Below, piece by piece: positions 18,578 to 40,888 of a stretch of 40,888 nt of DNA. The notes under the pieces were generated by a model. The model was not told the DNA's origin. It saw only the letters and a list, made by a program, of their open reading frames with translations, and did not search any database. This DNA is from Chitinophagaceae bacterium (lineage in GTDB: Bacteria; Bacteroidota; Bacteroidia; Chitinophagales; Chitinophagaceae): NCBI GenBank assembly GCA_947476485.1, contig CANJQU010000030.1, positions 1 to 40,888 of the forward strand. Direction: 5' to 3'. Made by a program: the position numbers and the translations under genes. Every line of letters starts with the position of its first letter. Positions within the stretch are counted from its first letter, which is position 1.

Positions 18578-19354
18578 TTATGCAACATCATAGTTCGCGA
18601 TGAAGTTATGACCACCGTAAATGTTGCCAACATAACTAATTCTTGCAATCATCCAGTTGCCCGCAAATGTTGGGCTGCCTATTTCATGGATGGTTGCTCC
18701 ATATGGACCTGAAACTCCTCCGATACTTCCGGTTATGCCGGCAGTATAAACCATCAGCACTATTTCAGCTCCCAACACAAGCGAATTATTTACCAAATTG
18801 TAAACAAAAGTACCTGTCCCAGATGCCGCATAATAATGCACTTGTTTTGCCTGCGAATTTAAATGCAACTGAATGGCATGGCCTATTCCTGCGGTCCAGG
18901 TTGCCAGTGCAGTCTGGCTACAGTTTATATTGGCCAGCTCACTCAACAAAAAGTGCGTACTGTCATCGGCAGTCCCTATAGGTTGTGCGATAAGGCTAAT
19001 ACTATCGTCAAGAATTACGTTCGGTGAGCTACCATCGTTAAAGACGAGTGATGTCTCACTTGTATTTACCTGTACATAGGGGGCATGTGTGCTCTCATCA
19101 ATGCCAGCCAGGCCCAACGAGGGCACACGTATCATGCTGCCATTGAAATATATCCATCCCGATGTTGCGGAATAGCTGTAAGTCGTGCCGCTCACTAGTG
19201 TCCGGGTGATTACGCACCCGCTGACAACAAAGGGGCCATTGCCACCCATTGCGGCAAGTGCATTGATGGTCTCGGTATAAGCGGTTTGCAGGTATCCCAG
19301 TTGGTCCTGTGTTAGGGGAAAGCCGCCAGGCTGTGTAAAATCAATACTTTTCAT
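18578..19354 (-). CDS. Phage tail fibre-like protein
   Basis: This 258-residue protein is the last gene of the minus-strand phage module, where tail fibres are normally encoded. It begins 'MKSIDFTQPGGFPLTQDQLG', a start typical of Bacteroidota phage tail proteins that attach to the baseplate, followed by Gly/Ser/Thr-rich beta sequence without enzymatic motifs. It likely contributes to receptor binding. Its stop codon is close to the mreD stop codon on the opposite strand, so this is the edge of the phage region. Confidence 0.6.
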   Translation of the reverse strand: MKSIDFTQPGGFPLTQDQLGYLQTAYTETINALAAMGGNGPFVVSGCVITRTLVSGTTYSYSATSGWIYFNGSMIRVPSLGLAGIDESTHAPYVQVNTSETSLVFNDGSSPNVILDDSISLIAQPIGTADDSTHFLLSELANINCSQTALATWTAGIGHAIQLHLNSQAKQVHYYAASGTGTFVYNLVNNSLVLGAEIVLMVYTAGITGSIGGVSGPYGATIHEIGSPTFAGNWMIARISYVGNIYGGHNFIANYDVA

Positions 19355-19435
19355 AGCTACTTATTTCTTAAACGTTATTTAATAGGCCTTATAATTTCTC
19401 TCTTGTTGTATCTAATGCCAGGATAATTGCAATTA

Positions 19436-19963
19436 TCAGACAACCAGCACTGTGTAGTTGTTCTTGCTCACCAGGCGGTATTTGTCTACTATGGCCTTCA
19501 GTCGGTGTATATCATAACCTGGTGAAACTGATACTGCATATGGTACATTTACTACAAACTGTATGCCCAGCCAGTATGTCTCCGCAGTGGTATAAAGAGG
19601 CACAGGATCTGGCGCGAGTATTACCATGCTGCCTATTTCCGCCACAGTATCAATAAACAATGGTTTATCCTCGATCACTTCGTAAATGAAGTCGGGATCC
19701 ACATAAGCGCCATCACTTATAAATATCCCCCTGCCGGACGGATCGAAAACATCATTTAGTGCAGCCTGCAGGTAACATACTTGTCCGTTGTGTGCGAGTG
19801 AATACAGGTTGTTCTGTCTGTTCGTTGTGAAAACTGAATACAGGTATTTCACCGGGCTTGCCAATGCCTGTAGCCATGCCAGCATTTTCTTCAGCCGCAA
19901 CCGGACTGGCGTCAGGTATCGTGGTAATCCCGTACTGCTAAAATCAATATCAAATACGCTCAT
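19436..19963 (-). CDS. Phage tail protein in the gpI position
   Basis: A 175-residue protein between the gpJ-like baseplate gene and the fibre gene, where P2/Mu-type phages carry gpI/gp48. It begins 'MSVFDIDFSSTGLPRYLTPV' and contains 'RLKKMLAWLQALASPVKYLY' and 'YLQAALNDVFDPSGRGIFIS'. I do not recognise a named domain. By position it should connect the baseplate wedge to the fibre. Confidence 0.6.
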   Translation of the reverse strand: MSVFDIDFSSTGLPRYLTPVRLRLKKMLAWLQALASPVKYLYSVFTTNRQNNLYSLAHNGQVCYLQAALNDVFDPSGRGIFISDGAYVDPDFIYEVIEDKPLFIDTVAEIGSMVILAPDPVPLYTTAETYWLGIQFVVNVPYAVSVSPGYDIHRLKAIVDKYRLVSKNNYTVLVV

Positions 19964-19986
19964 AAGCTCATTTTAGATTTCTATAA

Positions 19987-20817
19987 TTAAGCGCCGTAAG
20001 CCACATAGCTCAAATGTGTATCAAACCACGTTGTATCAAGAGCCATATATCCTGCATCTGGAGTGTATTTAACATCGATAGCTACCGGTGGCACGCTGCC
20101 ATAAAAGGCCTGTACGTGGGCCACATCTGCGATCACAACCCCTGACACCGCTTGTATAGCTGCAATAAAGTTGTTCAGTATGAATATTCCATTGAACGGC
20201 AAGCTGTCGAGAAAAACATTTACTGCCACCTTCACCGGCGCGATAGACGTACCATCTATCCTGCTGCCATCGCTCCTCAAAACCAGCGGGTCATAGTATA
20301 TCACCATCGTAGGTTGAAAAGTGTCTGCGGCGCCACTGGTGCATTGCAGCCGTACTCCTGCGTCTTTTATCTGCATCATGTAGGCAGTGAACGCAGCAAG
20401 CTCGCCACCGCTCATTGCGCCTAAGCTACCACTCACCATTTTTGCTGCTTTTATCCTTACCAGGTTACTTAGTTCTATCGCGGCTGCATTTCTTACTATC
20501 AGCACCGTGGGATCAACCGGTGGTACCACCGCATAAATATCACTGTCCGCAGGCAACGCCACACCATACTGAAAGGCCTTCGCCTTCGTTACATACCATT
20601 GCAGGCTGTGAGGTTTCTGGGCTGCTATTATTCCTGTTACCTCATCTTTATGTACATCAAATAGATTTTCGAGCGTCCACTGACATACTGCTACCACATA
20701 AGTCCACAATTTCCATATCGCTACAGCGCTTGTGCTCGTCAATAGGGGTCCTAGTGTCGGGTCAATTTGCACATGAGTAACCATTGCTGCCTGTATCTGC
20801 GCTATACTTCTTGCCAT
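19987..20817 (-). CDS. Baseplate J/gp47-like wedge protein
   Basis: The 276-residue protein has a helical N-terminal half ('IWKLWTYVVAVCQWTLENLF'), an 'AAAIELSNLVRIKAAKMVSG' segment and a C-terminal part with 'AVNVFLDSLPFNGIFILNNF' and 'VSGVVIADV'. This pattern, a domain ending in an insertion that reads out an index of wedge residues, resembles the gpJ/gp47 family. Its position just before the gpI-like and fibre genes agrees. Such proteins form the baseplate wedge of contractile tails. Confidence 0.65.
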   Translation of the reverse strand: MARSIAQIQAAMVTHVQIDPTLGPLLTSTSAVAIWKLWTYVVAVCQWTLENLFDVHKDEVTGIIAAQKPHSLQWYVTKAKAFQYGVALPADSDIYAVVPPVDPTVLIVRNAAAIELSNLVRIKAAKMVSGSLGAMSGGELAAFTAYMMQIKDAGVRLQCTSGAADTFQPTMVIYYDPLVLRSDGSRIDGTSIAPVKVAVNVFLDSLPFNGIFILNNFIAAIQAVSGVVIADVAHVQAFYGSVPPVAIDVKYTPDAGYMALDTTWFDTHLSYVAYGA

Positions 20818-20862: not shown

Positions 20863-22146
20863 TTAATATTCGTCTCCGTAAGTAATAAATCCACCGGTTC
20901 CAATGTTACCTGGATCATTCTGGTTGTTGTATTCTGTTTTTTCCCAGTCAGCGGTTATTCCTGTATTCATTATCCGCACCTCGTCAAGCATACCTGTGTA
21001 AAATGAGTCAAGTAGATATTCGGGTATTTGTCCCAATGCCAGTTGCGTATTTGTGGTCACAAGTACAGCGCTTGAGGAAACTACTGTTTGCAAGACTCCA
21101 TCGAAATAGATCAGTACCTGGTCCAGATTGTTTGCTCCTGCAGGTAGTACCGCGGTTATCTTATGCCAGTTGGTGTCATATATCCAGGCAAATCCGGCAG
21201 ATGAGCCTGAAACTTCAAGACACAGCACATCTGATCCTGTGTAAAAAAATGAAAATCTCGTGTACGTTCCGATACCGACGTTATTTCCGTATCCTAAGAA
21301 TTCATGTGCCTGGTTTGCACCCATCTTAAACCAGCAGGTCATACTTCTTTCTGCTGTTCCCACCGGCAAACCCGTCGGAGAATCGCGTGTCATTGACTGG
21401 AATGATCCCGAGGAGAACATGGCTCCGCCACCAATCTTTCCGTCTGCCTGATTCACGTGATTATGATTTGTGAGTGTCAGGGCATTTGTCGTAGCATCAG
21501 CGGTCAGCGAACTGCCCAGGTGATACACAGCCCGGTAGTAACTATTCCATACGCTTCCGCTGGCACCTCCATGGAATGTAGTTATGCTGGTTTCCCCGTA
21601 ACGCATATAAAAAATAGTATCCGAACTACTGCTTATTGTTGACAATTTCAGCCAGGCAACTAATACACCCGAAAAGCCATCGTAGGATTCGATCTCCCAA
21701 TTTAGCTCATAGATTTCACCAGGGTCTTTGAAAAATAAAATGTCATATCCATCATTCCTGCACACATGTCCTCCATTAGCTACAGTTCTGAGCGTGGCGT
21801 GTGTTATGCTTACCAACACCGGGAAATCATGGCAATCGCTTCCACCACACAGCGTATAATCTATTGTCAAAGACCGGTGGTAGATGCCGGAGGGGAGCGG
21901 CGGAGATGCCATTGCATCCAATGTGCCAACTACAATGCCATTCTGGCTAAACTTTCGCAATATCCCGTGATCCCCCAAAGCAAGTGAAGAGTCACTCACG
22001 TTGAATACTGTACCCACAGCGGGTATAGCCGTTATGCTCACGTTGTTATCTTTGCAGAACTGTATTCCTGCATCAAGTGAACCTGTCGCCTGTACGATCG
22101 AGTCACACATGCTTTGATTTGGCTGCACTGTATATGTTGTTGCCAT
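20863..22146 (-). CDS. LysM-like, DUF2341 and LamG-domain baseplate-associated adhesin
   Basis: The 427-residue protein has three parts. The first 70 residues resemble a LysM-type repeat ('TYTVQPNQSMCDSIVQATGS', 'AIPAVGTVFNVSD'). A DUF2341-like domain follows ('RSLTIDYTLCGGSDCHDFPV', 'DILFFKDPG', 'DTIFYMRYGE'), then a concanavalin-like LamG domain ('ERSMTCWFKMGANQAHEFLG', 'YTGMLDEVRIMN'). LamG domains bind glycans or proteins. Its place within the baseplate genes suggests a receptor-binding or cell-wall-binding particle component. There is no signal peptide, as expected for a particle protein. Confidence 0.7.
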   Translation of the reverse strand: MATTYTVQPNQSMCDSIVQATGSLDAGIQFCKDNNVSITAIPAVGTVFNVSDSSLALGDHGILRKFSQNGIVVGTLDAMASPPLPSGIYHRSLTIDYTLCGGSDCHDFPVLVSITHATLRTVANGGHVCRNDGYDILFFKDPGEIYELNWEIESYDGFSGVLVAWLKLSTISSSSDTIFYMRYGETSITTFHGGASGSVWNSYYRAVYHLGSSLTADATTNALTLTNHNHVNQADGKIGGGAMFSSGSFQSMTRDSPTGLPVGTAERSMTCWFKMGANQAHEFLGYGNNVGIGTYTRFSFFYTGSDVLCLEVSGSSAGFAWIYDTNWHKITAVLPAGANNLDQVLIYFDGVLQTVVSSSAVLVTTNTQLALGQIPEYLLDSFYTGMLDEVRIMNTGITADWEKTEYNNQNDPGNIGTGGFITYGDEY

Positions 22147-22195: not shown

Positions 22196-22495
22196 CTATT
22201 TGTAGAAGGCATCGCTGGCTACCACCCCATCGGGTAAAACCTGTATGCGTGCCACGTCCATACCATCTTTGGTAAACTCAACACTGATTGCCCTGATAAG
22301 CTCCGAGAAGCCCTCATCATCCAGGTATTCAAACGCACCTGCACAAACGTCCGGGTTCTGTTTAAAATCGCCTTTATCGTTCAGTATCAATTGCCGTTGA
22401 TGCTGTGGAGTGCTTTCAACGATTGTAAAATCTCCTGCTATTATCTCAAGGCCATCAATTGTATCGAGGCTAATATCCATCATCAGTTTTGCCAT
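22196..22495 (-). CDS. gp25/gpW-like baseplate wedge protein
   Basis: About 99 residues, following the spike gene. It contains 'MDISLDTIDGLEIIAGDFTI', 'QRQLILNDKGDFKQNPDVCA' and 'GFSELIRAISVEFTKDG', a pattern seen in small lysozyme-like wedge proteins of the gp25 group: a short protein in which an Asn-Pro and a phage-conserved acidic segment lie in the middle. A GTG at 22513 overlaps the end of the spike gene; the ATG at 22495 is the more likely start. Confidence 0.6.
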   Translation of the reverse strand: MAKLMMDISLDTIDGLEIIAGDFTIVESTPQHQRQLILNDKGDFKQNPDVCAGAFEYLDDEGFSELIRAISVEFTKDGMDVARIQVLPDGVVASDAFYK

Positions 22496-22505
22496 ATTTA
22501 CATGT

Positions 22506-23057
22506 TTACGCACTCAATAGGTTATTCAATCTTGTTTGAAGGGTCGTAAATGTTGCCGCATTATTTGGGAGTCCGCTTGTCGCAGAACCTACCGCAACAG
22601 TTATCGCTGCAATGCCGGTCAGGAGGTCGTTCAGGATATCAAACAAACTTTCACCGCCGGTGCCCATTTTAAATACACTCGCGCCAATATTGAACACGAC
22701 TGGCCCATTTTTTATGTTTACTTGTGTATCGTCCATTTCATACGTCACGCTCCCTATCTTAATGCTCACCTGCTCCAATTCTCCTGCCTTGACGATCGAC
22801 CATATACCCGGTCCGTCTATGGTTGCGATAATTACGTTACTGTCGTCTTTAGGCACAACGATCATCCCGTCATTGTTGCCCGTCATGGTGCTTAGCAAAA
22901 CCCCTTCTATGGGTTCACTGGCATCGCTGGGTTGTACACTCACTGTATAGGCATCCGTGTCTATTGTGCCGGCCACAACTGTCCCGCTAATAATTTCATA
23001 GGGTTTATCGGCTAGGGCTGCTATACCTGCTCTTATTCTGGCAGTGTTCTTTGTCAT
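22506..23057 (-). CDS. Baseplate spike (gpV/gp45-like) protein
   Basis: The 183-residue protein follows the hub gene. It contains an OB-like stretch ('SGTVVAGTIDTDAYTVSVQP'), 'IEGVLLSTMTGNNDGMIVVP', and a repeated-beta segment ('VSIKIGSVTYEMDDTQVNIK', 'NGPVVFNIGASVFKMGTGGE') typical of the trimeric beta-helix of membrane-puncturing spikes, then a helical C-terminus. It would sit at the tail tip. Confidence 0.7.
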   Translation of the reverse strand: MTKNTARIRAGIAALADKPYEIISGTVVAGTIDTDAYTVSVQPSDASEPIEGVLLSTMTGNNDGMIVVPKDDSNVIIATIDGPGIWSIVKAGELEQVSIKIGSVTYEMDDTQVNIKNGPVVFNIGASVFKMGTGGESLFDILNDLLTGIAAITVAVGSATSGLPNNAATFTTLQTRLNNLLSA

Positions 23058-23065: not shown

Positions 23066-24097
23066 TTATTTTGCGATTCCCATCATAGGGCCGATCTCCA
23101 CGATCCTACGTGCCCCGTTTACGCCAAACCTTACTTCTGTGCTCTCTATCAGGTATTTGCCATTCCGTTCAGGATACCGGACATCGGCAATACTTGCCGT
23201 GGCTCCGGGTGCTGCATAGGGCTCAAGAAATCCAACGATACTGCCCTCATAGCCCGAATAGTTTAGTTTTTCGGCTTTCTCAATTGCTAATTCCTTCAAC
23301 GCGGTTGCATCCTTCACCTGGTTTAGAATCCTGTTGTAGGTGCGAGCGATGCCATTACGCGTATCTGAAACGCCAGAGCATTTTTCGCCGCTGGCGAGCT
23401 TACTGCTATAAGTTACTTCCACAGGGTCGTTTTCGACGGAACGTTCTTTTAAATCGTTATCATTTATCACATTATAACCGAGTTTGTAATCAACCATGCC
23501 TGACTTGAACATATCTCTTCCTCTCGAAACCAGTGAGTATACAAAGCCACACCAGAGTACATCCGGTTCGATGAAAAAGCATGTCAGGCAGCCATCCGTA
23601 TATTTTATGATATTGGTGATGACCTCAAAACCACTACAACCTGGTATTTGTACATTCGTCAGCTTAAAATCAACCGTGCAACGTATTTTGATCTTGTAGC
23701 CTCTCTCAAGCTGATCAACGGCCTTCAGCAGCAGATTTTCAACAGTTATCACTTTTGCGAATATTTTTACACTATTCCTTCGTAGCAGCCAGCCGTAGCC
23801 GTCACAGGATATGGTCAGTGGCATAGCTAAGCTGCGATGGTTTACAAATCCCCTGAATTCGGTTTGCAGTATTCCGTTGTATCCTAGTTTTATTGTGACG
23901 GGATCTCCATCACGGAACTTTTTGCCTGTTGTAATAGTTTCCGCAAGTGTTTTATTCTTTGATGCAATTTTCCCAATTGACGGCAACTTAATTATTGCAT
24001 TATCCGCTATACTATGCATGCTGCGTTTTATACAGACTTCGTATACTCCGCTAAACCGAAAATTTCCGATGGTTATATCACTACTCAAAACAAACAT
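23066..24097 (-). CDS. Baseplate hub protein (gpD/gp44-like)
   Basis: The 343-residue protein resembles the gp27/gpD hub family: an N-terminal barrel-like segment with 'KFRDGDPVTIKLGYNGILQ' and 'TEFRGFVNHRSL' (typical of the hub's double barrels), and a C-terminal 'FLEPYAAPGATASIADVRYP' and 'KYLIESTEVRFG'. Hub proteins carry the spike and connect it to the tail tube. Gene order DUF6046, hub, spike, gp25 is consistent. Confidence 0.7.
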   Translation of the reverse strand: MFVLSSDITIGNFRFSGVYEVCIKRSMHSIADNAIIKLPSIGKIASKNKTLAETITTGKKFRDGDPVTIKLGYNGILQTEFRGFVNHRSLAMPLTISCDGYGWLLRRNSVKIFAKVITVENLLLKAVDQLERGYKIKIRCTVDFKLTNVQIPGCSGFEVITNIIKYTDGCLTCFFIEPDVLWCGFVYSLVSRGRDMFKSGMVDYKLGYNVINDNDLKERSVENDPVEVTYSSKLASGEKCSGVSDTRNGIARTYNRILNQVKDATALKELAIEKAEKLNYSGYEGSIVGFLEPYAAPGATASIADVRYPERNGKYLIESTEVRFGVNGARRIVEIGPMMGIAK

Positions 24098-24133: not shown

Positions 24134-24781
24134 CTAGGAGATAGTGACCAAATTGAATGGTTCGTCGCTCACCATTCGTAACAGGTATGGGCGCACATTT
24201 TTTACTCCGTTCATTGACGGAAAAGACAGTTCGCGTATCACAACCTGGTCGCTGCCACTTCTGTCCGGCCTCAGCAGGAATATATCCGTTAGCGGGCATT
24301 GAATAGATAGCGCAGTATTCTGTTCATATATTGTGCGCAATTTGGTCACATCTGCTTCCGGAAATTCATTAGTGTTACCAATAATAAACCCTCTTACAAG
24401 GATCTCGTAATCCTGTACATTTATCAACTCTTTTACAGTACCCTTTCGACCCGTGAGCGGTGTTTCAACTATAGTTTTTCTGCTTGTGACTGATATTACA
24501 GGGTAAGGCAGGTTCCATTTGCTTAGTGGTCCGGAGGATTCATTTGTGTTTAAGCCGGTGTCCTCCGAGGTATCGTTATACATAATCGTAACCGGCATGT
24601 AATACTCTTTGCCCAGTTCATCGATCGAATAATATGGAGATCCCTGAGCCCCATTTTCTTTCCTGCCTGCAAGCAGTGCGTTCTGTCCGGTGACCGATTT
24701 AAATTCAGGATCGAACGCTTTTGTCTTGTATCCAAATGTCTGTTCAAAAAGATCAGCTAAACTGAATGATATTTCCGCCAT
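24134..24781 (-). CDS. DUF6046-like phage tail protein
   Basis: The 215-residue protein between the tape-measure position and the hub resembles DUF6046, found in Bacteroidota phages. It has 'YYMPVTIMYND', 'LPYPVISVTSRKTIVETPLT' and 'GTVKELINVQDYEILVRGFI', then a C-terminal 'SFPSMNGVKNVRPYLLRMVS'. Its position matches tail-tip adaptors (such as gp43/gp53 types) that join tube to hub. Assignment is by resemblance and position. It starts 2 bp after the preceding gene's stop codon, so they are co-translated. Confidence 0.65.
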   Translation of the reverse strand: MAEISFSLADLFEQTFGYKTKAFDPEFKSVTGQNALLAGRKENGAQGSPYYSIDELGKEYYMPVTIMYNDTSEDTGLNTNESSGPLSKWNLPYPVISVTSRKTIVETPLTGRKGTVKELINVQDYEILVRGFIIGNTNEFPEADVTKLRTIYEQNTALSIQCPLTDIFLLRPDRSGSDQVVIRELSFPSMNGVKNVRPYLLRMVSDEPFNLVTIS

Positions 24782-24783: not shown

Positions 24784-25992
24784 TTATGATATTGCGTTTG
24801 CACTGTTAAGAACTTCAAGCAGCACCTCCTCCACTTTGCTTCTAAGGTCATCCAGACTGTTCATTGTTTGGGTTGTACTCATGGTTAAATTGCCGATCAA
24901 AGGGGTGTTTAGATTTACATTCACCATCCGGCCGGAACTATCGCTGCGCTTGGCTGGCTCCCGATTATAGTTGTATTGCCGTGCCACTTCAAACCCATCA
25001 TTTTCCGGATCAACCGGTAATCCGGAACTACCACTTCTTTCCAAAAACGAAAATGCAGGCTGTTCTCTAACTGTATTAGAAGCCGGTAAAGAATACAACC
25101 CTGAAGCAGGCCTTTGTAATGCTGGTCCAAGATGACTATTCATCAGGGCAGGATATTCCATAAGCGAGCTTTTCATTTCCTTATGGAAATCCATTATGGA
25201 AGGTGAATCATATCTATACACTTTAAACGGATCGAAAATTACCTTGTTACTGTCATTGGGTGATTTACCTCCTTCCTGATCTGTACTAAATTTCCATCCC
25301 AGCGGGTATAATGGTAAGTTCTGACGATGCTCATTATCAGGGACAATTTTTCTTATTGCCGGTGATAGATTTTTTGACGGGTCAATGATTGGTGTCGCAA
25401 TGTGTAAATTGTCTGCAAAATTTGTTTTGGGTAGAAAAATTGGAGGGCCGTTTGAAATATTATTGTAAGATGCAAGCTCATTCTGCAAAATGACACTCCA
25501 TTTTTTCATCCCGTTTATATAAACAGATTCTGGGTCGCCAAAATAGTAATTGAGTTTTAACCTGTGAACGTAGTCTTCAATATTTGTTGCATCAAGGGGA
25601 GCGCCAATGTTATTTTTTTTTAAGGCTTTTCTAAGATTACCGACTTGTGCCCATTTCTTTGCAAAATCGTTATTATCTTGAAACGATGCGTAGGCGATTC
25701 TTCTGTTGTGTTTTTCTTCATTTCCGGGAGCGGAAAAATTAGTGCTCATCTTCGCAGAGTTCTTGAGCGTGCTGTAATATTTTATTCCTCCAAAGTTATG
25801 ATTAGTCAATGCTTTTTCAAAAGTGAACCCGTTGGATTCGTGCGCAGCCTGAGCCATAAGTAAATTTAGCTGTAACCCTTTATAGCCATTATTTACAAGG
25901 TCTTGCCTTATCTCTAAAGCTATTGCCGTATTTAACTTAGGCTTTAATGGTTTCGGCTTGGCTATTGATTTTCTCTTGATTTTTCTTGGCAT
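24784..25992 (-). CDS. Glucosaminidase-like protein in the tape-measure position
   Basis: The 402-residue protein sits where the tape measure should be. Residues about 20-150 resemble a glucosaminidase/muramidase domain: 'LNLLMAQAAHESNGFTFEKA' (catalytic Glu candidate), 'HNFGGIKYYSTLK', 'IAYASFQDNNDFAKKWAQVG'. The middle is Pro/Ser-rich and low in structure. The last 60 residues ('LNTPLIGNLTMS', 'LRSKVEEVLLEVLNSANAIS') look like a tape-measure C-terminus. It lacks the long coiled-coil and hydrophobic segments of normal tape measures, and the N-terminus is very basic. It may be a truncated tape measure carrying a wall hydrolase. Confidence 0.65.
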   Translation of the reverse strand: MPRKIKRKSIAKPKPLKPKLNTAIALEIRQDLVNNGYKGLQLNLLMAQAAHESNGFTFEKALTNHNFGGIKYYSTLKNSAKMSTNFSAPGNEEKHNRRIAYASFQDNNDFAKKWAQVGNLRKALKKNNIGAPLDATNIEDYVHRLKLNYYFGDPESVYINGMKKWSVILQNELASYNNISNGPPIFLPKTNFADNLHIATPIIDPSKNLSPAIRKIVPDNEHRQNLPLYPLGWKFSTDQEGGKSPNDSNKVIFDPFKVYRYDSPSIMDFHKEMKSSLMEYPALMNSHLGPALQRPASGLYSLPASNTVREQPAFSFLERSGSSGLPVDPENDGFEVARQYNYNREPAKRSDSSGRMVNVNLNTPLIGNLTMSTTQTMNSLDDLRSKVEEVLLEVLNSANAIS

Positions 25993-26034: not shown

Positions 26035-26556
26035 ATGAAATCGTTTAATCCTATACTCACTATTATATTCCTTTGCATATTCCACAACTGCAATGCCCAG
26101 ATTCATTTAAAGGGCTATAAGTGTAAATTTTACAAAGATCAATGGCCATATACAATGGCCGAGATGTGCAGTAAAAAAGATACTTTCCGCTATACACTAT
26201 ACTCCAGGGATATTTGGTATGAATTTTGGATTGAAACAGGGACAAATGACATTAAGCCTGAAGACGAATTAAGAATAGGGCTCGCTATGTGTTTTGAAAA
26301 CGAACATTACAAAATGACTAGTGATAGTTTGTACATTGCAACGGGCAGATACACAGATATAAACGACTACTACTACACGCTTTATGATCCTTATTTGATG
26401 TCTTCTGTATCGCTACGGTCAAAATATAATGATTCCTCATTTTCTGAAAAGAGTAAATGGCTCCTGTCACAAATAAGAAGCAATAAGAAAGGAGATATTT
26501 ATCTCATTAATGATAGAAATCAAACCTGCCAGGATCCAAATGAAAGAGAACACTAG
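26035..26556 (+). CDS. Secreted protein, inserted on the opposite strand of the tail module
   Basis: This 173-residue protein has an N-terminal signal peptide ('IIFLCIFHNCNAQ') and a short, Tyr-rich body with Cys residues and many charged residues, without a domain I recognise. It is the only + strand gene inside the minus-strand tail module, lying between the chaperone extension and the tape-measure-position gene, and it looks AT-rich by eye. This is the pattern of a cargo ('moron') gene expressed from its own promoter. The product would act in the host envelope. Function unknown. Confidence 0.6.
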   Translation: MKSFNPILTIIFLCIFHNCNAQIHLKGYKCKFYKDQWPYTMAEMCSKKDTFRYTLYSRDIWYEFWIETGTNDIKPEDELRIGLAMCFENEHYKMTSDSLYIATGRYTDINDYYYTLYDPYLMSSVSLRSKYNDSSFSEKSKWLLSQIRSNKKGDIYLINDRNQTCQDPNEREH

Positions 26557-32003: not shown

Positions 32004-32018
32004 TCAGGGGGTCAGGGG
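31998..32018. repeat. GC-rich hairpin repeat that covers the 3' end of the protease/scaffold gene
   Basis: CCCCCT/AGGGGG arms form a tight hairpin with a TC loop (31998-32011), continuing into TCAGGGGG. This is a common interspersed sequence in Bacteroidota genomes, as I remember it. The stop codon and the last residues (NPLTP) of the protease/scaffold protein are encoded inside it. Confidence 0.5.
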
Positions 32019-33063: not shown

Positions 33064-33094
33064 AAGCATTTTTATGATGTGCTGAAAACGCACT

Positions 33095-33120
33095 GTCATA
33101 TGCCGCCTGCGGCAGATCAT
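33095..33120 (+). repeat. Copy of the 21-bp motif upstream of the capsid-tail promoter
   Basis: GTCATATGCCGCCTGCG at 33095-33111 matches the tandem repeat upstream of the terminase gene at 14 of 17 bases, and an ATCAT follows 21 bp later, as it does there. Over 26 bases, 21 match. The motif lies about 32 bp upstream of the -33 box of the divergent capsid-tail module, in the opposite orientation to its transcription. Confidence 0.45.
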
Positions 33121-33391: not shown

Positions 33392-33859
33392 CTATGCAAA
33401 ATCCATCTGGCTCTCTATGTAGCTGCGGATTTTGCGTATGTAGTCATAGTAACCCATCTGCATCCGCACAAAAAACACAGCCAATATTCCTATCCCTATC
33501 GCCAGCAGTGTATAACTGATCTTCACTTCTCCTCCTACCAGCATCATAATTACAGAGGCGGCTATCAGGAAAGAACTGAACATCACGATCAGCAATGGTC
33601 CGCCAACATCCAGCTTGCGCATTTTTGACGTTACTACCACGTTCATTTTGTTTCCATCCTGCTTCATTTCTACCTTGGTTATAGGCAGTGTCTTAATGCC
33701 CTCTTCCTGCTCTGCATGTGGTATGATGCGCAGCGACTGCTCCTTCTCTATAACCTCAAAATCCATGTTGTGTATCTTCACATGATGCCCTATAAGGCGG
33801 TTCTTGAGATCTTCTCTTGCCGTCGACGATTGGTACTTCTGCGTTCTTGTGAATAACAT
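33392..33859 (-). CDS. Small membrane protein, unknown, host-like
   Basis: The 155-residue protein has a soluble N-terminal domain of about 85 residues ('LKNRLIGHHVKIHNMDFEVI', 'EQSLRIIPHAEQEEGIKTLP') followed by two membrane helices ('GGPLLIVMFSSFLIAASVIM' and 'YTLLAIGIGILAVFFVRMQM') and a charged C-terminus. It resembles no phage protein I know. It lies between the two phage modules next to the helicase gene, so it is likely part of the host chromosome or a passenger. No function can be given. Confidence 0.65.
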   Translation of the reverse strand: MLFTRTQKYQSSTAREDLKNRLIGHHVKIHNMDFEVIEKEQSLRIIPHAEQEEGIKTLPITKVEMKQDGNKMNVVVTSKMRKLDVGGPLLIVMFSSFLIAASVIMMLVGGEVKISYTLLAIGIGILAVFFVRMQMGYYDYIRKIRSYIESQMDFA

Positions 33860-33984: not shown

Positions 33985-35238
33985 ATGAGTTTATTGGCGG
34001 CACGTTATGTATCTTTAGTGGAAAATATACTCATTTTGAACTTCGAAGATTTTGGTTTTGATGATGATCTGATGGATGGCATTGACGACATGGGCTACCA
34101 TACGGCCACTCCCGTTCAGGAGCAGGTAATACCTCACATCATTGCAGGCAGGGATATTATTGCTGCTGCACAAACAGGTACTGGTAAGACTGCTGCCTTT
34201 TTGCTGCCCGTCATTCAGAAGCTTATTACCGAACATCATGAGGGGCATAAGATAAATGCAATGATCATTGTGCCTACCCGCGAGCTTGCTGTGCAGATCA
34301 CACAGACGCTCGAAGGCATTTCTTACTACACATCCATCAGTTTCATTTCTGTCTATGGCGGCACTGGCGGCGCACTTTTCGCCAATGAGAAAAAGGCGCT
34401 TACTTCCGGCGTTGATATTGTCATCTGTACACCTGGCCGTATGATCTCCCATCTCAATATGGGCTACGTGCCGCTCGATGGCCTCAGGTACCTTATTCTT
34501 GATGAAGCAGATCGTATGCTCGATATGGGCTTCTACGATGACATTATCAAGATCATTTCATACATGCCCGCAGAGCGCCAGAATCTGCTTTTCTCTGCCA
34601 CAATGCCCCCGGGCATACGTAAGCTTGCAAATACTATCTTAAAAAAACCGGTGGAGATCAATATTGCAATCTCTAAACCCCCGGAGCAGATAAAACAGGA
34701 AGCCTTCCTCGTATTCGAACCTCAGAAGATTCCATTGGTCAAGCATGTGCTGCAGCAATCGCAGTTCGACAGTGTGCTCGTATTCTGTTCCAGTAAACTA
34801 AGCGTAAAAAAACTGACCGAGGAACTGAAGCGGGCTAAATTCTCTGTCGACCAGATTCAGTCCGATCTGGACCAGGAAAAACGTGAGCAGGTATTGCTTG
34901 ACTTCAGGAGTAAGAAGCTGAAAGTACTTGTCGCCACAGATATCTTAAGTCGTGGTATCGACATCGAAGACATCGACCTGGTCATCAACTTCGATGTGCC
35001 GCACGATGGCGAAGACTATATTCACCGCATTGGCCGTACCGCCCGGGCTTCTACCAAGGGTGCAGCTTACACATTTATCACGGAAAAGGAGCAATACAAA
35101 TTTGATAAGATCGAAAAGCTCCTGGGCCATGCTGTTACGAAAGCTACTGTCCCGTCTGAATTCGGACCAACCCCTGTTCCTGGAGCGGCGCCATCTGGCA
35201 AACCCAAAAAGAAAAAACACCGCGGTCTCAGAAAGTAA
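33985..35238 (+). CDS. DEAD-box ATP-dependent RNA helicase (RhlE-like)
   Basis: The 417-residue protein has the canonical motifs: Q motif region 'TATPVQEQVIPHI', motif I 'AQTGTGKT', Ia 'PTRELA', motif II 'LDEADRMLDMG', motif III 'FSATM', IV 'VLVFCSSKLS', V 'VATDILSRGIDIEDID' and VI 'HRIGRTAR'. A basic tail (PKKKKHRGLRK) is common in RhlE-type helicases that act on ribosome assembly and mRNA. The ATG at 33985 is the first start; a TTG at 34036 (giving MNFEDFGF) is closer to the usual N-terminus of the family. It looks like a housekeeping gene but lies between two phage modules. Confidence 0.95.
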   Translation: MSLLAARYVSLVENILILNFEDFGFDDDLMDGIDDMGYHTATPVQEQVIPHIIAGRDIIAAAQTGTGKTAAFLLPVIQKLITEHHEGHKINAMIIVPTRELAVQITQTLEGISYYTSISFISVYGGTGGALFANEKKALTSGVDIVICTPGRMISHLNMGYVPLDGLRYLILDEADRMLDMGFYDDIIKIISYMPAERQNLLFSATMPPGIRKLANTILKKPVEINIAISKPPEQIKQEAFLVFEPQKIPLVKHVLQQSQFDSVLVFCSSKLSVKKLTEELKRAKFSVDQIQSDLDQEKREQVLLDFRSKKLKVLVATDILSRGIDIEDIDLVINFDVPHDGEDYIHRIGRTARASTKGAAYTFITEKEQYKFDKIEKLLGHAVTKATVPSEFGPTPVPGAAPSGKPKKKKHRGLRK

Positions 35239-35462: not shown

Positions 35463-35509
35463 ATCATATGCAGCATGCGCGATATCATATGCAGCATGCG
35501 GTACATCAT
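35463..35509 (+). repeat. Tandem 21-bp repeat upstream of the terminase promoter
   Basis: ATCATATGCAGCATGCG occurs at 35463-35479 and, identically, at 35484-35500, with a third partial copy (ATCAT) at 35505-35509. The period is 21 bp, two helical turns, so proteins bound to each copy would lie on the same face. The repeat ends just upstream of the -33 box (35520), the usual place for an activator site. A related copy lies upstream of the capsid-tail module (33095). Confidence 0.65.
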
Positions 35510-35555: not shown

Positions 35556-36020
35556 ATGAAAGAAGAATTATCGTACGATCAGAAGAAAGCATGGGCCAAA
35601 ACGCTCTATACAAAAGAGGATGCAGCAGTACCGGATATTGCGCTCATGGTAGGAGCAGACGAAGTGATCGTAAGCTCATGGATTGAAGAAGGGCGCTGGA
35701 ATGATATAAAGCGATCACTGCTCATTTCCAAAAAAGTTCAGCTCCACATTCTCTACGATACGCTGGAGCTACTCACTAACAACCTCCGTAAAGAAACCGA
35801 CCTTGCTAAGATGATCAAAGAGGTCGAGCTCATCGGCAAATACACTGCGGCCATAAAAAATCTCGAATCAGAAACAGGTGTCCCCTACATCGTTCAGGTT
35901 GCCGAGCAGTTCACTTCCTGGCTACTTCGCCGCGACCCTGAACTGGCACGACAAGTCAGCATTCATTTTGATGCCTTCATCCGCGAGCAGGACAGGACCC
36001 AACCCAGGAACATCCGGTAA
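35556..36020 (+). CDS. Terminase small subunit-like protein
   Basis: The 154-residue protein has an N-terminal helix-turn-helix ('KKAWAKTLYTKEDAAVPDIA', 'GADEVIVSSWIEEGRWNDIK'), as in phage terminase small subunits that bind the packaging site, then a helical region ('LLTNNLRKETDLAKMIKEVE') that can oligomerise, and a short C-terminal tail. It lies 175 bp upstream of the large subunit. The ATG at 35556 is preferred over an ATG at 35475 because the upstream codons run through the tandem repeats and the promoter. Confidence 0.75.
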   Translation: MKEELSYDQKKAWAKTLYTKEDAAVPDIALMVGADEVIVSSWIEEGRWNDIKRSLLISKKVQLHILYDTLELLTNNLRKETDLAKMIKEVELIGKYTAAIKNLESETGVPYIVQVAEQFTSWLLRRDPELARQVSIHFDAFIREQDRTQPRNIR

Positions 36021-36195: not shown

Positions 36196-37710
36196 ATGAC
36201 AGACAAACAATGGATAGCACGCTGGGGCAGCCATTTCAAAATGATAATGGCCACAACAGAGATCGATCCTAATGAAACAAAAGAAAAGGCCGCTGAACGA
36301 CGACAGGAACTGGAGGAAGTGCCCGAAAAATGGTTCAATTACTATTTCCCCGCTTATGCATACGCCGCTCCGGCAGCCTTTCACAAAGAAGCCACAAAAC
36401 GCATCATCGAAAATTCAGAATGGTATGAGGTGCGCTTGTGGAGCCGCGAGCTCGCCAAGAGTACACGCACAATGATGGAGGTCTTTTACCTCACGTTGGT
36501 AGGGCATAAAACAATTGACGGCTCCCGTCACCGAAAGCGCTATGTGCTCCTCATCAGCAACAGCTTAGACAATGCCTGTCGCCTGCTTATGCCCTACAGG
36601 GCTAACCTTGAATGTAACCAACGCATCATCCAGGACTACGGTACACAGCAAACCACCGGTAAATGGCAGGAAAGCGAATTCATCACCCAAAGTGGGGCAG
36701 CCTTTCGTGCGCTCGGCGTAGGCCAGAGCCCGCGCGGCGCACGTAACGGTGAGGTCCGGCCGGATATATTATTGTTTGACGATGTAGACACGGATGCCGA
36801 TTGCCTCAACCCGGAGATAGTCGCGAAAAAGTGGAGATGGATAGAGGAAGCGGCCATCGGCACCCGTTCGGTATCGTCCTCAACTACGATCATTTTTTGT
36901 GGCAACCGCATCGCAGTAGATAGCTGCGTAGAGCGCGCATCAAAACTGGCAGACTGCACTGAAGTTATCAACATCCGCGATCCCGACGGTCGTTCGGCGT
37001 GGCCCGAAAAAAATACGGAAAAAGATATCGACCGTGTGCTCGCTCAGAAAAGCTACGCGGCCCAGCAGAAAGAATACTTCAATAATCCTATTACCGAGGG
37101 GTCGGTGTTTAAATCAATGGCATACAAGCCCGCAAAGCAACTATGTGAATATGATATACTCGTATGCTACACCGACCCTTCTTATAAAGACACCAACGAT
37201 TACAAAGCAACGGTACTCGTTGGCAAATGGCAGAATGAATTTCATATCATTAAATGTTTTCTCGCCCAGGCCACTACCGCCCACATGATCGACTGGCACT
37301 ATGTCATTATGGATATTGTGAAGGGAGAGCTATGCTATTATTTTATGGAAGAAACATTCATGCAGGATGTGCTCGTCAAAGAGGTAAGTGATGCCGGCAC
37401 GCGCACGGGCAGGATCATACCCATACGCGGCGACAATCGGCGAAAGCCCGATAAGTTCATGCGCATCGAAAGCCTCCTCGAACCGCTGCATCGGAATGGC
37501 CAGCTATATCTTAGTGCTGCCGAACGCGACAATCAGCACATGAAGCGACTCGCAGAACAATTCACCGCCTTCGCTCCGGGTTCCCGCGCCCACAACGATG
37601 GCCCCGATGCAGTAGAGGGCGCCATCTGGAAGATCAACGAAATATTGTTAAAGAAAGATGGCAAAGGTATATCCCTCTCAAAGCGACAACAGCACATTAA
37701 AAGATGGTGA
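36196..37710 (+). CDS. Terminase large subunit
   Basis: The 504-residue protein has an ATPase part with the deviant Walker A 'SRELAKST' (83-90) usual in phage terminases, Walker B 'ILLFDDVD' (191-198), a coupling-type 'TTIIFCGNR' (about 230-238), and an RNase H-like nuclease with 'YTDPSYKDTNDY' (325-336) and C-terminal 'HNDGPDAVEGA'. It pumps and cuts phage DNA into the head. The coding sequence is intact, with no sign of decay. It probably forms an operon with the small subunit. Confidence 0.93.
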   Translation: MTDKQWIARWGSHFKMIMATTEIDPNETKEKAAERRQELEEVPEKWFNYYFPAYAYAAPAAFHKEATKRIIENSEWYEVRLWSRELAKSTRTMMEVFYLTLVGHKTIDGSRHRKRYVLLISNSLDNACRLLMPYRANLECNQRIIQDYGTQQTTGKWQESEFITQSGAAFRALGVGQSPRGARNGEVRPDILLFDDVDTDADCLNPEIVAKKWRWIEEAAIGTRSVSSSTTIIFCGNRIAVDSCVERASKLADCTEVINIRDPDGRSAWPEKNTEKDIDRVLAQKSYAAQQKEYFNNPITEGSVFKSMAYKPAKQLCEYDILVCYTDPSYKDTNDYKATVLVGKWQNEFHIIKCFLAQATTAHMIDWHYVIMDIVKGELCYYFMEETFMQDVLVKEVSDAGTRTGRIIPIRGDNRRKPDKFMRIESLLEPLHRNGQLYLSAAERDNQHMKRLAEQFTAFAPGSRAHNDGPDAVEGAIWKINEILLKKDGKGISLSKRQQHIKRW

Positions 37711-37840
37711 ACAGATCAGCAACCATCTTTACCAATTAGTTACTCGACAAAACAACACAACCAAATACAAGACAAAAAGCAATAAATTTGCTCTTGAAAA
37801 ATTGCGCCTCACCGCCTGCACGGTTAAATCCAGACACAAT

Positions 37841-38392
37841 ATGAAAAAACACCTAATCATCATCTTTCTCCTCGCATTGGCTACTACATCCTCCGCGCAA
37901 ACAAAAAAGGAAGAACGGGACGAAAGAATTCAGGATATCCATCAAAACGCTGCAGAAAAGAAGATCGTTTCAAAACTGAAAGTTGACAACAATCTCTTCC
38001 GCCGCCAGATGCTCGCCCTTCCCGAATATGCTGATGAGCGTAAAAAGATCCCGGCTCTTCGCAATGCAAGTAAAATGCCCGTAAAGATCGCTGTTTATGT
38101 AGACTCCCTTGGTGATGCCGGTGACGAAGCTAAAACCCTGACTGGCTATATTTGCGAAAACATTGGCGACAACTCAACCAATATTTTCGAGATCACTTAC
38201 GACCGTGCAGCTAAGAAGATAACAGCCGTTAAGCCCACCGGCGAAACTTCCGACATAGAACAGGATAACGATACCGAGATCAGAAAGCCCGGAGTCAAAA
38301 AACCTGCCGCCAAAAAAAACAAGGGCGAAGATGATGACGATGATCCCGAAGAAGACGCCCCCGCCAGGAAAAAACTTCAGGACGAAGAGTAA
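37841..38392 (+). CDS. Secreted protein with a charged low-complexity tail
   Basis: The 183-residue protein starts with a clear signal peptide ('MKKHLIIIFLLALATTSSAQ'). The body (about 25-130) holds 'FRRQMLALPEYADERKKIPA' and 'VYVDSLGDAGDEAKTLTGYI'. The last 40 residues are a Lys/Asp/Glu-rich stretch with acidic runs. It resembles no phage head protein, and an exported protein between terminase and head-completion genes is unusual. It is probably cargo or a host gene. An earlier ATG at 37658 overlaps the terminase gene and is not credible. Confidence 0.65.
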   Translation: MKKHLIIIFLLALATTSSAQTKKEERDERIQDIHQNAAEKKIVSKLKVDNNLFRRQMLALPEYADERKKIPALRNASKMPVKIAVYVDSLGDAGDEAKTLTGYICENIGDNSTNIFEITYDRAAKKITAVKPTGETSDIEQDNDTEIRKPGVKKPAAKKNKGEDDDDDPEEDAPARKKLQDEE

Positions 38393-38637: not shown

Positions 38638-39072
38638 ATGCCTATCATCACCCCATCCGATCTCGCCACAAACATTTATCCGGAGATCATTACAGAAATT
38701 ACCCGCACAGACAACACTATAACAACCAGGGCCATCGATACCGCCATTCAGGAAGCCAAGATGTACCTCGCCCGCTTCGATCTTGTCCAGTTGTTCGGTG
38801 CCGGCATTACACCACCTGCGGTCAGGGACGAATACCTTAAGTCACTCGTCAAAGACCTCGCCTGCTGGCACCTGTTGCGGCTCTCCAATGTCGGTATAGA
38901 CTATGCAGCTTATCGCACTGCCTACGAAGACGCAATAGGCTCCCTGAAAAATATTATGACCGGGCAGGCACAGCCGCAGGGTTGGCCATACGCCGATACT
39001 ACAGGAGAAGAAACACCTGAGGGTGACTCCATTTCATGGAGCAGCAACCCCAAACGCAACAACTATTACTGA
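38638..39072 (+). CDS. gp36/DUF1320-like head completion protein
   Basis: The 144-residue protein begins 'MPIITPSDLATNIYPEIITE' and contains 'AIDTAIQEAKMYLARFDLVQ', 'EYLKSLVKDLACWHLL' and 'AYEDAIGSLKNIMTGQ'. This helical pattern is typical of DUF1320/Mu gp36 proteins, which fill the neck between portal and tail. In Mu-like phages the gene lies after the capsid gene; here it is separated from the capsid gene and placed between terminase and portal. Confidence 0.78.
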   Translation: MPIITPSDLATNIYPEIITEITRTDNTITTRAIDTAIQEAKMYLARFDLVQLFGAGITPPAVRDEYLKSLVKDLACWHLLRLSNVGIDYAAYRTAYEDAIGSLKNIMTGQAQPQGWPYADTTGEETPEGDSISWSSNPKRNNYY

Positions 39073-39093: not shown

Positions 39094-39570
39094 TCACACA
39101 ACCCCGCCCTGCACATACTCCGTATACGAGATCGTTTTTGCCGGAAATGGCTTGCTTTGAAACGCGTTTTTGGGGTTTGGGCGTTTCTTGCGTATAGGTT
39201 CAGGGTGTAAAAGTTTCTGTATTTTGTCAATGTTCATAATATACGCCAGCACCAATATGCAAAGGCCCGTATAGATCATCACTGCGGTATACTTGGTCAC
39301 TTTTTTTGCGTCCTTAGATAAGTTCTTCCGGTTAGGCGTGGCCCTGTAGATCAGGTACGTCATCAGCAGCGCAGTAAAAATAATGTAAGGAAACTTAAAC
39401 AATTTCAATACAAAGGGAGGCGTCAGCCAGCCAGCCATCAGTTGCCCCAGTCCATAGATCATCACAAGGTTCAGCAGGCTTATGTATGCGATCGCAACAA
39501 CAAGTGAGAATAACTTGAAACGGGTTACATCATAGACCAGGCGATACACAGCAACAATTAAACTTCTCAT
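39094..39570 (-). CDS. Membrane protein, tandem paralogue 1
   Basis: The 158-residue protein has about four membrane helices ('LFSLVVAIAYISLLNLVMIY', 'FPYIIFTALLMTYLI', 'YTAVMIYTGLCILVLAYIM') and a basic C-terminal tail. It is paralogous to the next gene: both start MR-LI--VY--V, share 'AIAYIS'/'ALAYIS', 'IYG-G', 'GWL' and 'FPYII'. Both lie antisense to the head genes. Function unknown; superinfection exclusion is a guess. Confidence 0.65.
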   Translation of the reverse strand: MRSLIVAVYRLVYDVTRFKLFSLVVAIAYISLLNLVMIYGLGQLMAGWLTPPFVLKLFKFPYIIFTALLMTYLIYRATPNRKNLSKDAKKVTKYTAVMIYTGLCILVLAYIMNIDKIQKLLHPEPIRKKRPNPKNAFQSKPFPAKTISYTEYVQGGVV

Positions 39571-39658
39571 TTTCTAAGTCTTGTAATAGGACGAATAAAG
39601 GTAGTAATTTAATGCAGTATCAAAAATGCAAAAGCAGGCTATCCTCCGTTTCGATTTG

Positions 39659-40024
39659 TCAATACTCCGCTAGGTACAGGTAAAAATATTTTATGTAAAT
39701 AAATAACAGCAGCGCTGCCATGGTAAATACCACCAGCGGCACATACATTACCCCTGCTTCTTTCGATCTTGATAAATTCTGCAACGGAAGCATGATCACA
39801 AAGTTGAAAACAAGCATCGCTATGATGACGCCGATAATATATGGAAACGCAAAGGCAATATGAACGTATGATGTAGGTAGCCAGCCCTCGGCCAGTATAC
39901 CAAAACCATAGATAAGCAACAGGTTAAGTGTGGAAATATATGCAAGAGCCGTGAAGAGCGAGATTACCTTATTACTTGTTAATCTGAAAACTATTTTATA
40001 AACATCGGCTATTAACCTCCTCAT
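39659..40024 (-). CDS. Membrane protein, tandem paralogue 2
   Basis: The 121-residue protein has the same four-helix plan as its neighbour at 39094 ('LFTALAYISTLNLLLIYGFG', 'FPYIIGVIIAMLVFNFVIML', 'LVVFTMAALLLFIYIKYF') but lacks the C-terminal basic tail. It is separated from that gene by 88 bp and lies head-to-head with the portal gene. The pair probably arose by tandem duplication. Confidence 0.65.
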   Translation of the reverse strand: MRRLIADVYKIVFRLTSNKVISLFTALAYISTLNLLLIYGFGILAEGWLPTSYVHIAFAFPYIIGVIIAMLVFNFVIMLPLQNLSRSKEAGVMYVPLVVFTMAALLLFIYIKYFYLYLAEY

Positions 40025-40099
40025 TTTATCTGGCGTATTTTATTCCGCACAAGATAGAGTTTTTTAAAGGATCATAATAATAGTGAATAATAACAATTT

Positions 40100-40888
40100 A
40101 TGGCAAAAACATACAAAACAGTACACGAGCCCGGATCTATAATTCTTAACGAACTTAATATTCGTTCCGTAGATCGTGGTCGAAAGGATATTCAGACATG
40201 GCGCGGTGCACTGGTCAGCGCAGAATCTATATGGTATCCAAATCGCTCTCGGCTCTACGACCTCTACGAAGACATCATTCTCGATGGCCATCTTTCCGGT
40301 GTCGTTTCAAAGCGCATCGATGCAGTGCTGAATAAAGAGATCTGCTTCGAAACTCAAGGCACGAAGAACCTCGCAATGAATGAGCTCATTCAGTCCTCTG
40401 CATTTCGCGAAATTATGCGCACTATTATGGAAACTCGGCTATGGGGCATTTCCGGTATTGAGTTCCTGCCCGGTGCAGAACTCGCCTGTGAGCTCATCCC
40501 ACGCAAGCATATTAAACCAGAGTTAGGGATCGTCGCATTTGAGCAGGCCGGTACCGATGGCATACCTTATACATCGCTTGATAGTGTATGGATAATCGGA
40601 GATGAAAAGGATCTCGGACTGCTCCTGAAGTGTGCACCGTACTGCCTCTACAAGCGTGGCGGCATTTCCGATTGGGCTCAGTATATCGAGCTCTTCGGCC
40701 AGCCCGTCCGCGTTATCAAGTACGATTCTTACGATGAGCAGACGAAACTAGAGCTGAAAAAGATACTTGATGAAAGTGGCAGCTCCCTCTCCATGATGAT
40801 ACCCCGTCAGGCCGACTTCGAAATAAAAGATGGTAAGCAGACCAACTGCGATGGCAACCTACAGTTGTCCTTTATCAAGGCGCTCAAC
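40100..40888 (+). CDS. DUF935 portal protein (Mu gp29-like), 3' partial
   Basis: The frame is open from ATG 40100 to the last base of the window (263 codons), so the C-terminus lies outside. It contains 'LYEDIILDGHLSGVVSKRID', 'FREIMRTIMETRLWGISGIE', 'LIPRKHIKPELGIV', 'GLLLKCAPYCLYKRGGISDW' and 'YIELFGQPVRVIKYDSYDEQ'. These fit DUF935, the portal family of Mu-like phages (gp29): the portal forms the dodecameric head vertex through which DNA enters. A gp30-like minor head protein normally follows. Confidence 0.88.
   Translation, partial: MAKTYKTVHEPGSIILNELNIRSVDRGRKDIQTWRGALVSAESIWYPNRSRLYDLYEDIILDGHLSGVVSKRIDAVLNKEICFETQGTKNLAMNELIQSSAFREIMRTIMETRLWGISGIEFLPGAELACELIPRKHIKPELGIVAFEQAGTDGIPYTSLDSVWIIGDEKDLGLLLKCAPYCLYKRGGISDWAQYIELFGQPVRVIKYDSYDEQTKLELKKILDESGSSLSMMIPRQADFEIKDGKQTNCDGNLQLSFIKALN

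Follow-up and report, generated by a model that had tools for sequence, protein, structure and literature searches.

We herein describe, in the 40,888-bp contig C30 of a 4.58-Mb Chitinophagaceae assembly with 215 contigs (this whole contig is called the window; G, C and L handles denote genomes, contigs and loci), a set of genes for a Mu-like contractile-tailed particle, which Pfam and PHROGs matches place at 18.6-40.9 kb. Our comparisons with related genomes make it fairly probable that these genes encode a phage particle of Mu-like ancestry that has been domesticated, is passed down for the most part vertically and most likely works as a gene transfer agent (GTA). A little less firmly, we lean towards the fuller view that in the common ancestor of a clade of at least six GTDB-type genera, a Mu-like phage was independently domesticated into a contractile-tailed GTA of Bacteroidota, anchored beside the cell-shape operon mreBCD, that a palindromic operator, which some cousin prophages also carry, links its dispersed loci, and that clade-specific secreted and membrane proteins were recruited into its packaging module. 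We call the system GTA-like rather than a proven GTA.

The minus-strand module (18.6-33.0 kb) comprises genes for protease, capsid, a lysis block, sheath, tube and baseplate, and the plus-strand module, from 35.6 kb onwards, those for the terminase small and large subunits (TerS and TerL), gp36 and portal; host genes (carbamoyl-phosphate synthase large chain and mreBC(D)) lie to the left of the structural module. Genes were assigned by Pfam and PHROGs and the remaining roles by position. A first-pass annotation of the window had recognised contractile particle genes here, and the family matches bear this out (Mu-like_Pro, capsid, CHAP, DUF2586, tube, DUF6046 and hub on the minus strand; TerS, TerL, gp36 and Portal_Mu on the plus strand). 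The set that it had called complete is so in relatives but not in the window contig, whose end cuts the portal gene, and its labels wedge, spike and chaperone have as their basis only position or PHROGs with no stated function. Moreover, mreBCD directly adjoins the structural module just beyond the region it had covered, and TerS and the protease probably start at 35556 and 33005, respectively, not at their first start codons.

Conservation beside mreBCD and dispersal of the modules

A TerL pattern scan of 84,980 genomes (one per species) gave 49 loci, and TerL was matched in 15 of 98 genomes of the family; among 39 genomes picked for having TerL, 37 also held the capsid gene. In 25 genomes the structural module and mreD are convergent neighbours joined on single contigs, and the gap from mreD to the wedge gene, on which it was measured, is 1377-1535 bp in 24 of these 25, while MreC identity to the window reaches down to 54% (G120, part of MreC) or 57% (G121). 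Most head, tail and packaging genes have near-constant lengths where they are fully contained. One of the mreD-linked carriers is a named strain, Flavipsychrobacter stenotrophus RB1R16 (L024/G114, L110). The variety of insertion sites expected of a temperate prophage was not found: the structural module is fixed beside mreD in these 25 genomes, and it is the position of the packaging module that varies. The comparison of synteny proposed in the first-pass annotation thereby revealed a structural module kept at one host site. A further possible case is G069, in which the sheath gene (L119) lies 6.5 kb from mreD and g01-g03 are unmatched. The contigs of G089 and G033 stop less than 1 kb from mreD, the surroundings of G101 fall outside the comparison, and no structural module was found in the 4.5 kb beyond mreD in G079. 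A strictly empty site at mreD could not be cleanly delimited, the non-carrier neighbours being variable.

TerL and the capsid gene lie closest in the window and G098, at about 5 kb; they are 6-8 kb apart in G116 and G120, 14.5 kb apart in G114 and G062, and 19-24 kb apart in G124, G089, G119, G118 and G102 (about 24 kb in the last). The distance rises to 86 kb in G107 and to 124 kb in G106, there on one 1.295-Mb contig, and the two genes are on separate contigs in G103, G105, G109, G111, G112, G113, G121 and G005. Joint packaging of loci up to 124 kb apart, as in G106, seems implausible. Additionally, the G105 and G111 assemblies hold free-standing full-length TerL genes amid other genes, with no gp36 or portal match in the DNA fetched around them. 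Such free-standing genes were seen at L013:9947-11530, L009:1982-3607 and L033:635-2182, with a TerS match upstream in L009 and an operator-like site upstream in L013.

Descent and selection

Within the genus, a capsid gene of at least 75% identity is present in 26 of 35 genomes. One other genome has a 67% copy, which belongs to a prophage-type locus (L043, TerL 48%) in an assembly that also holds a carrier-type locus (L023); G097 has a 55% prophage copy, and seven genomes have no capsid match, three of these being less than 66% complete. Of 294 genomes of the family, 34 have a capsid match; identity is 68-100% in 17 of these, which belong to six genera, and does not exceed 59% in the other 17; a seventh genus is represented by G092 (70%, genome 60% complete). 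The 58-row GyrB tree places the 30 carriers without exception in one clade of 36 rows, within a branch of support 98, and the carrier state changes 7 times, compared with 19.6 times with shuffled labels (0 of 500 as low). The remaining six rows of the clade are labelled non-carriers (G079, G151, G123, G140, G097 and G150); G151 has g01-g03 at mreD, and G079 has pieces of TerL and a 57% sheath.

The distances of all 24 genes tested (7-29 genomes each, mreC included) correlate with those of the unlinked GyrB (r 0.30-0.78, p <=0.034), with capsid (0.75), sheath (0.78), TerL (0.75) and portal (0.77) alongside the host control mreC (0.74). Moreover, trees of the structural and packaging modules have 14 of 22 splits in common (permuted mean 0.17, maximum 4; 25 genomes). 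By the NG86 method, with several dS values saturated, dN/dS is 0.01-0.10 for most genes and 0.05-0.07 for mreC. Higher values were obtained for g09 at the tape-measure position (to 0.40, the highest measured), holin (to 0.24), TerS and the 37658 gene (to 0.20), the 39094 gene (to 0.19), and gp36 and g14 (to 0.14). The core genes are mostly intact and under purifying selection. Mostly vertical inheritance, which the first-pass annotation had suggested checking, is favoured by this selection and by partial congruence with GyrB, on a host tree of a single gene and with supported conflicts.

A shared palindrome upstream of both operons

A palindrome of 26-27 bp with the half-site ATGATAGTACG lies upstream of the protease and TerS genes; it was first spotted in shared upstream strings and then tested, the single k-mers common to the upstream regions being mostly A/T runs. 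With a leave-one-genome-out matrix, trained on sites from the same regions and with close relatives remaining in it, 18 of 29 protease and 17 of 31 TerS regions (G104 twice in each) scored at p <=0.01, compared with 5 of the 337 regions that precede 15 other genes (TerL 1, mreB 3, mreD 1). A matrix-free palindrome test, in which some of the best palindromes overlap or adjoin the operator rather than being the operator, gave 8 of 28 protease and 6 of 30 TerS regions at p <=0.01 vs 3 of 143 for six control genes. The spacing to the start codon is typically 67-69 bp at both operons. Of 19 protease sites, 14 lie at 67-72 bp and the other 5 at 89-90 bp, a shift of roughly two helix turns; for TerS it is 67-68 bp at 10 of 16 measured sites and 47-114 bp at the others. 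Additionally, the two sites of a genome are more alike than permuted pairs (14 pairs, p 0.0002, uncorrected for site choice). The separated loci look co-regulated, because in many carriers the palindrome lies upstream of both operons and its two copies are alike within a genome.

The operator may be ancestral, since three of nine prophage-type elements also score above 13 (G097:C41 21.6, G119:C37 15.5, L217 13.4; 6 of 9 do not, and these scores have no null model). A helix-turn-helix (HTH)-like protein of about 102 amino acids (aa) is only a weak candidate for the activator. In 13 carriers it is matched next to the packaging genes, and cousin prophages have it too, but it is unmatched in the DNA fetched for G110, G112 and G113, which hold the best operator sites. 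Among solved structures named as HTH proteins, GerE comes closest (E 0.38). Upstream of mreB, 3 of 15 regions fit the operator matrix at p <=0.01.

Cousin prophages and mobility genes

Five carriers also hold cousin prophages (G119:C37, G114:C13, G069:C36, G120:C31 and G121:C5), and a further cousin was found in another genus (G021:C2). The elements of the five carriers are compact and have the divergent two-module order of the window, and no match to the 33392, DEAD-box, 37658 or 39094 genes was found in the DNA fetched for them (two without the far end). Because the cousins have the same layout, the divergent arrangement is ancestral, and the insertion of host genes and the dispersal are derived. 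We discarded the divergent layout as a hallmark of GTAs for the same identical order in compact prophages. The complementary modules noted in the first-pass annotation do argue for one system, but the split itself is no evidence for a GTA, the cousin prophages being alike. TerL identity of the cousins compared is 38-58%. Phages of Porphyromonas and Bacteroides are among the TerL matches in phage records; the best TerL match there is 47% (best 15 of 203 listed, all <60%), and the best sheath match 36.6% (15 of 16 listed, <60%). Of seven sheath matches in IMG/VR, five are carrier-type fragments of at most 12.2 kb in which only structural genes were matched, and two are prophage-type.

About 15 kb from TerL, the cousin in G021 has genes for a Mu-transpos_C protein of 660 aa and for an AAA ATPase. 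In the carriers, Mu-transpos_C is absent from 13 of 14, the single match (G114) lying about 416 kb from the capsid gene; it was found near the cousin in one of six cousin-bearing genomes (G021) and in none of 14 control genomes. No integrase (PF00589) was found in the placed modules of 14 carriers, although integrases occur elsewhere in these genomes (the contig number of the G109 packaging locus was presumed in this placement), and none lies close to the cousin prophages of G114, G119 and G120 either. The Mu-transpos_C model may miss divergent transposases.

Weighing the GTA-like reading

A GTA is favoured by the conserved position in the host chromosome, by the dispersal of the loci, by purifying selection and by descent that is mostly vertical, in line with the first-pass suggestion of one system, possibly GTA-like. 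In the proposed course of events, a putative activator would bind the palindromes in some cells and switch on both operons; TerS and TerL would fill heads with host DNA by headful packaging, since the encoding genes are no longer one packageable element; holin and endolysin would release the particles; and the contractile tail would deliver DNA to related cells, where recombination could follow.

Several observations weigh against this interpretation. Neither MuA nor an integrase beside the portal, which the first-pass annotation had named as signs of an ordinary prophage, was seen; however, missing mobility genes are weak evidence, because most cousin prophages are negative in the same test, and we dropped them as a strong argument for a GTA. 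Our assessment is unchanged by this test, since it rests on site, dispersal and descent. As for descent, the SH-aLRT support of the carrier clade is only 82, and the GyrB tree has 8 of 22 splits in common with the structural tree and only 4 of 22 with the packaging tree (permuted maximum 3). Strongly supported conflicts number 4 between structural and packaging trees, 4 between structural and GyrB trees and 5 between packaging and GyrB trees, so that descent is broadly vertical with exceptions, or the single GyrB gene may be a noisy guide. Purifying selection rules out neither an active prophage nor a killing particle. Damaged genes also occur, namely TerL pieces with stops in G079, TerL fragments in G089, a capsid in two overlapping pieces in G108 and a sheath in two pieces in G123, and both modules are lost in G150 and G097 and the structural module in G140. 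In G005 and G062 other genes lie beyond mreD, the module sitting on another contig. The operator is not significant at either operon in several carriers (e.g., G121, G089, G062). By title, all carriers but one named strain are metagenome-assembled genomes (MAGs), and the particle, its packaged DNA and the transfer are inferred from genes alone.

The main rival is a domesticated killing particle like PBSX of Bacillus, carrying random host DNA in a tailed head and acting as a bacteriocin with no gene transfer. PBSX is contractile and is not known to transfer genes. The precedent, together with the contractile tail genes and the variable genes at the fibre and tape-measure positions, speaks for this rival, which we regard as unlikely yet a serious contender; excerpts of PMC8347963 state that PBSX fills its heads with random 13-kb pieces of host DNA and is lethal to related strains. 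The present system resembles PBSX-like particles, as described in those excerpts, in being domesticated and conserved across related strains, and in its sheath protein, and would also share with PBSX heads that hold random host DNA. It is unlike PBSX, one region of about 33 kb in those excerpts, in having two or more dispersed loci, a comparison based on descriptions. Against this rival, the fibre genes at 18578 and 20863 have dN/dS of 0.09-0.12 (measurable pairs) and are not diversifying. Killing and transfer cannot be told apart by sequence. An R-type tailocin, which would have no capsid, terminase or portal, does not fit, as all three are present.

An ordinary or slowly decaying resident Mu-like prophage, common in the clade by chance, would agree with the clear phage origin, the same-order cousins in five carrier genomes and the few broken copies, but the mreD site fixed in 25 genomes, the dispersal up to 124 kb and the near-constant gene lengths render it improbable; an active prophage is disfavoured by the same fixed site and dispersal. 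Still more improbable is an origin of the two modules from unrelated elements, one an island of capsid and tail genes and the other a packaging island, each with its own history: in many genomes the two are indeed unlinked, yet they have the operator in common, with copies alike within genomes, share tree splits and contribute complementary genes that stand in one contiguous order in the cousins. We give hardly any credence to an artefact of MAG assembly or binning. Most carriers are MAGs by title, and G123 may be a strain mixture (its sheath is on a short separate contig, and it is listed with 6% contamination as G148), but single contigs join mreD and the module in 25 genomes, including Flavipsychrobacter stenotrophus RB1R16.

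The six-point definition of a GTA, as excerpted from PMC9662315, comprises proteins of tailed phages (caudoviricetes), mostly random host DNA, endogenization, often at multiple loci, a genome of its own that is not fully packageable, mostly vertical inheritance, and delivery of DNA. In our sequences, caudoviricetes-derived proteins, full endogenization at multiple loci and mostly vertical inheritance were found. RcGTA, BaGTA and BhGTA/VSH-1 are similar in their phage-derived structural genes, several chromosomal loci and mostly vertical descent; the system described here differs in its contractile tail, Mu-like genes and Bacteroidota host, and is known from genes alone. In excerpts on the Bartonella and Brachyspira GTAs, the tails mentioned are absent or non-contractile. 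Mu-like prophages of Bacteroidota have the same divergent gene order and homologous proteins, but are compact and without the interleaved genes of the window, and the one in G021 has Mu-transpos_C and an AAA ATPase. No Bacteroidota or contractile-tailed GTA was recognised in the titles and abstract beginnings among the matches listed from open-licence PMC papers. An excerpted study (PMC12946183) reports that gut Oscillospiraceae and Ruminococcaceae show GTA activity and that lateral transduction occurs in Bacteroides, neither of which is the present system. If our reading is true, a contractile, Mu-derived case in an environmental clade of Bacteroidota would mean that phages of another type, and in another phylum, have been domesticated for gene transfer; one of the carriers is a named strain. 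The operator and the natural losses (G150, G097) would offer direct tests of the persistence of the system and of the co-regulation of dispersed phage genes.

Gene content of the window and interleaved genes

Table 1. Features of the window, with the evidence for each assignment (E, E-value; w/o, without).
Feature	Position	Strand	Evidence and remarks
mreB, mreC, mreD, host anchor of structural module	15899..18537	+	Pfam MreB_Mbl, MreC; mreD by position, w/o Pfam match
g01, tail/fibre-type protein, final structural-module gene	18578..19354	-	Kept beside mreD; role by position; no family match in Pfam or PHROGs
g02, baseplate-region protein w/o known family	19436..19963	-	Kept in carriers and cousin prophages
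Baseplate wedge-like protein	19987..20817	-	PHROG 38413, E 2.5e-53, function unknown; wedge from position
Fibre/receptor-binding candidate, Laminin_G_3	20863..22146	-	Pfam E 4.9e-8; varies among relatives
g05, small baseplate-region protein	22196..22513	-	Conserved; w/o family
g06, spike-like protein	22506..23057	-	Position, conservation; DUF7446 only below cut-off
Baseplate hub	23066..24097	-	PHROG 4930, E 7e-50
DUF6046 baseplate hub protein	24134..24781	-	Pfam E 5.8e-28; PHROG 5233
Tape-measure-position protein, 402 aa, glucosaminidase-like domain	24784..25992	-	Pfam Glucosaminidase E 1e-4, below cut-off
Small secreted-type protein, opposite strand	26035..26556	+	Matched in 5 genomes (G000, G098, G099, G101, G102)
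g10, tail assembly-region protein	26818..27135	-	PHROG 19076, E 7.7e-14, function unknown
Tail tube	27208..27681	-	PHROG 4579 tail protein, E 1e-8; tube from position beside sheath; better match PHROG 9206 (E 9.7e-23), labelled major head protein
Tail sheath (DUF2586)	27732..28916	-	Pfam E 7.3e-49; PHROG 907
CHAP endolysin	29280..29840	-	Pfam E 2e-9; PHROG 9589; some carriers w/o match
g14, small lysis-block protein	29901..30332	-	No match in cousin prophages compared
Holin-like protein, single transmembrane segment	30337..30624	-	Position and sequence by eye; PHROG 1009 weak, unknown function
Major capsid protein	30651..31565	-	PHROG 267, E 4e-32; Pfam Phage_capsid_2
Head maturation protease/scaffold	32004..33005	-	Pfam Mu-like_Pro; start revised from 33062
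Palindromic operator candidate	33074..33099		68 bp upstream of protease start; p 0.0147
Membrane protein, probable host neighbour	33392..33859	-	Retained in L038, L194, loci w/o structural module
DEAD-box RNA helicase, probable host neighbour	33985..35238	+	Pfam E 1.8e-47; retained in L194
Degenerate palindrome	35463..35488		67 bp upstream of revised TerS start; position and spacing only, not significant by itself
Terminase small subunit	35556..36020	+	PHROG 4151 DNA binding protein, E 1.5e-22; TerS by position; start revised from 35475
Terminase large subunit	36196..37710	+	PHROG 38, E 1.1e-64
Secreted-type protein within packaging module	37658..38392	+	Aligned family; beside module in many loci; true start probably further in
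gp36 head-tail adaptor	38638..39072	+	Pfam Phage_Mu_Gp36; PHROG 195
Small membrane protein, clade-restricted family	39094..39570	-	
Second membrane protein, same family as 39094-39570	39659..40024	-	
Portal (Portal_Mu), truncated by contig end	40100..40888	+	Pfam E 2.4e-40; ~373 aa when full in relatives (373 aa in L113)

The first-pass annotation had regarded the interleaved genes as non-phage, which holds for the DEAD-box helicase and the 33392-33859 gene in that both look like host neighbours; the 37658-38392 gene and the membrane proteins at 39.1-40.0 kb, by contrast, accompany the packaging genes in most, not all, carriers. A role of the former two as particle genes is not supported, both remaining in G150, which lost both phage modules. 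There (L194), mreD is followed by a 33392-like gene, the DEAD-box gene, a 37658 homologue, a 39094-type gene, a GNAT gene and gyrB, with no match to the phage genes of the window; in G097 (L219), the 37658 and 39094 types are kept beside GNAT. The homologues of the secreted and membrane proteins outlast the phage genes at L194:4861-5888 and L219:10302-11249. Since they persist where phage genes are gone, these two families may serve a separate function. A search beside gyrB on C71 for the missing remainder of the packaging module of the window did not find it there. In G140/G115 (one assembly; L025, L193), the packaging module is kept and the structural module is gone after mreD, with neither capsid nor sheath found in the genome.

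The two membrane proteins at 39.1-40.0 kb align as one family, as the first-pass annotation had proposed in calling them paralogous. This protein family occurs in 5 of 96 genomes of the bacterial family, all inside the GyrB clade of the carriers, and was not found in carriers G033, G062 and G069. Predicted folds gave no useful PDB match either for the 37658 family (best E 0.11) or for the membrane family (none).

The ATPase-type and nuclease-type motifs of TerL are kept in all 33 sequences compared. Beyond the portal, relatives have a gp37-like protein, matched in 50 loci (all loci fetched, prophages included), and in some also a secreted protein and a small HTH-like protein on the other strand. 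The gene at the tape-measure position is very variable, the longest open reading frame there being 287-693 aa among carriers. The N-terminal cell-wall hydrolase type of its product differs in close relatives (glucosaminidase-like in the window, endolysin-type in L093), and the tail module also contains small secreted-type genes of opposite orientation, in varying number (window:26035-26556; L093:6266-9488).

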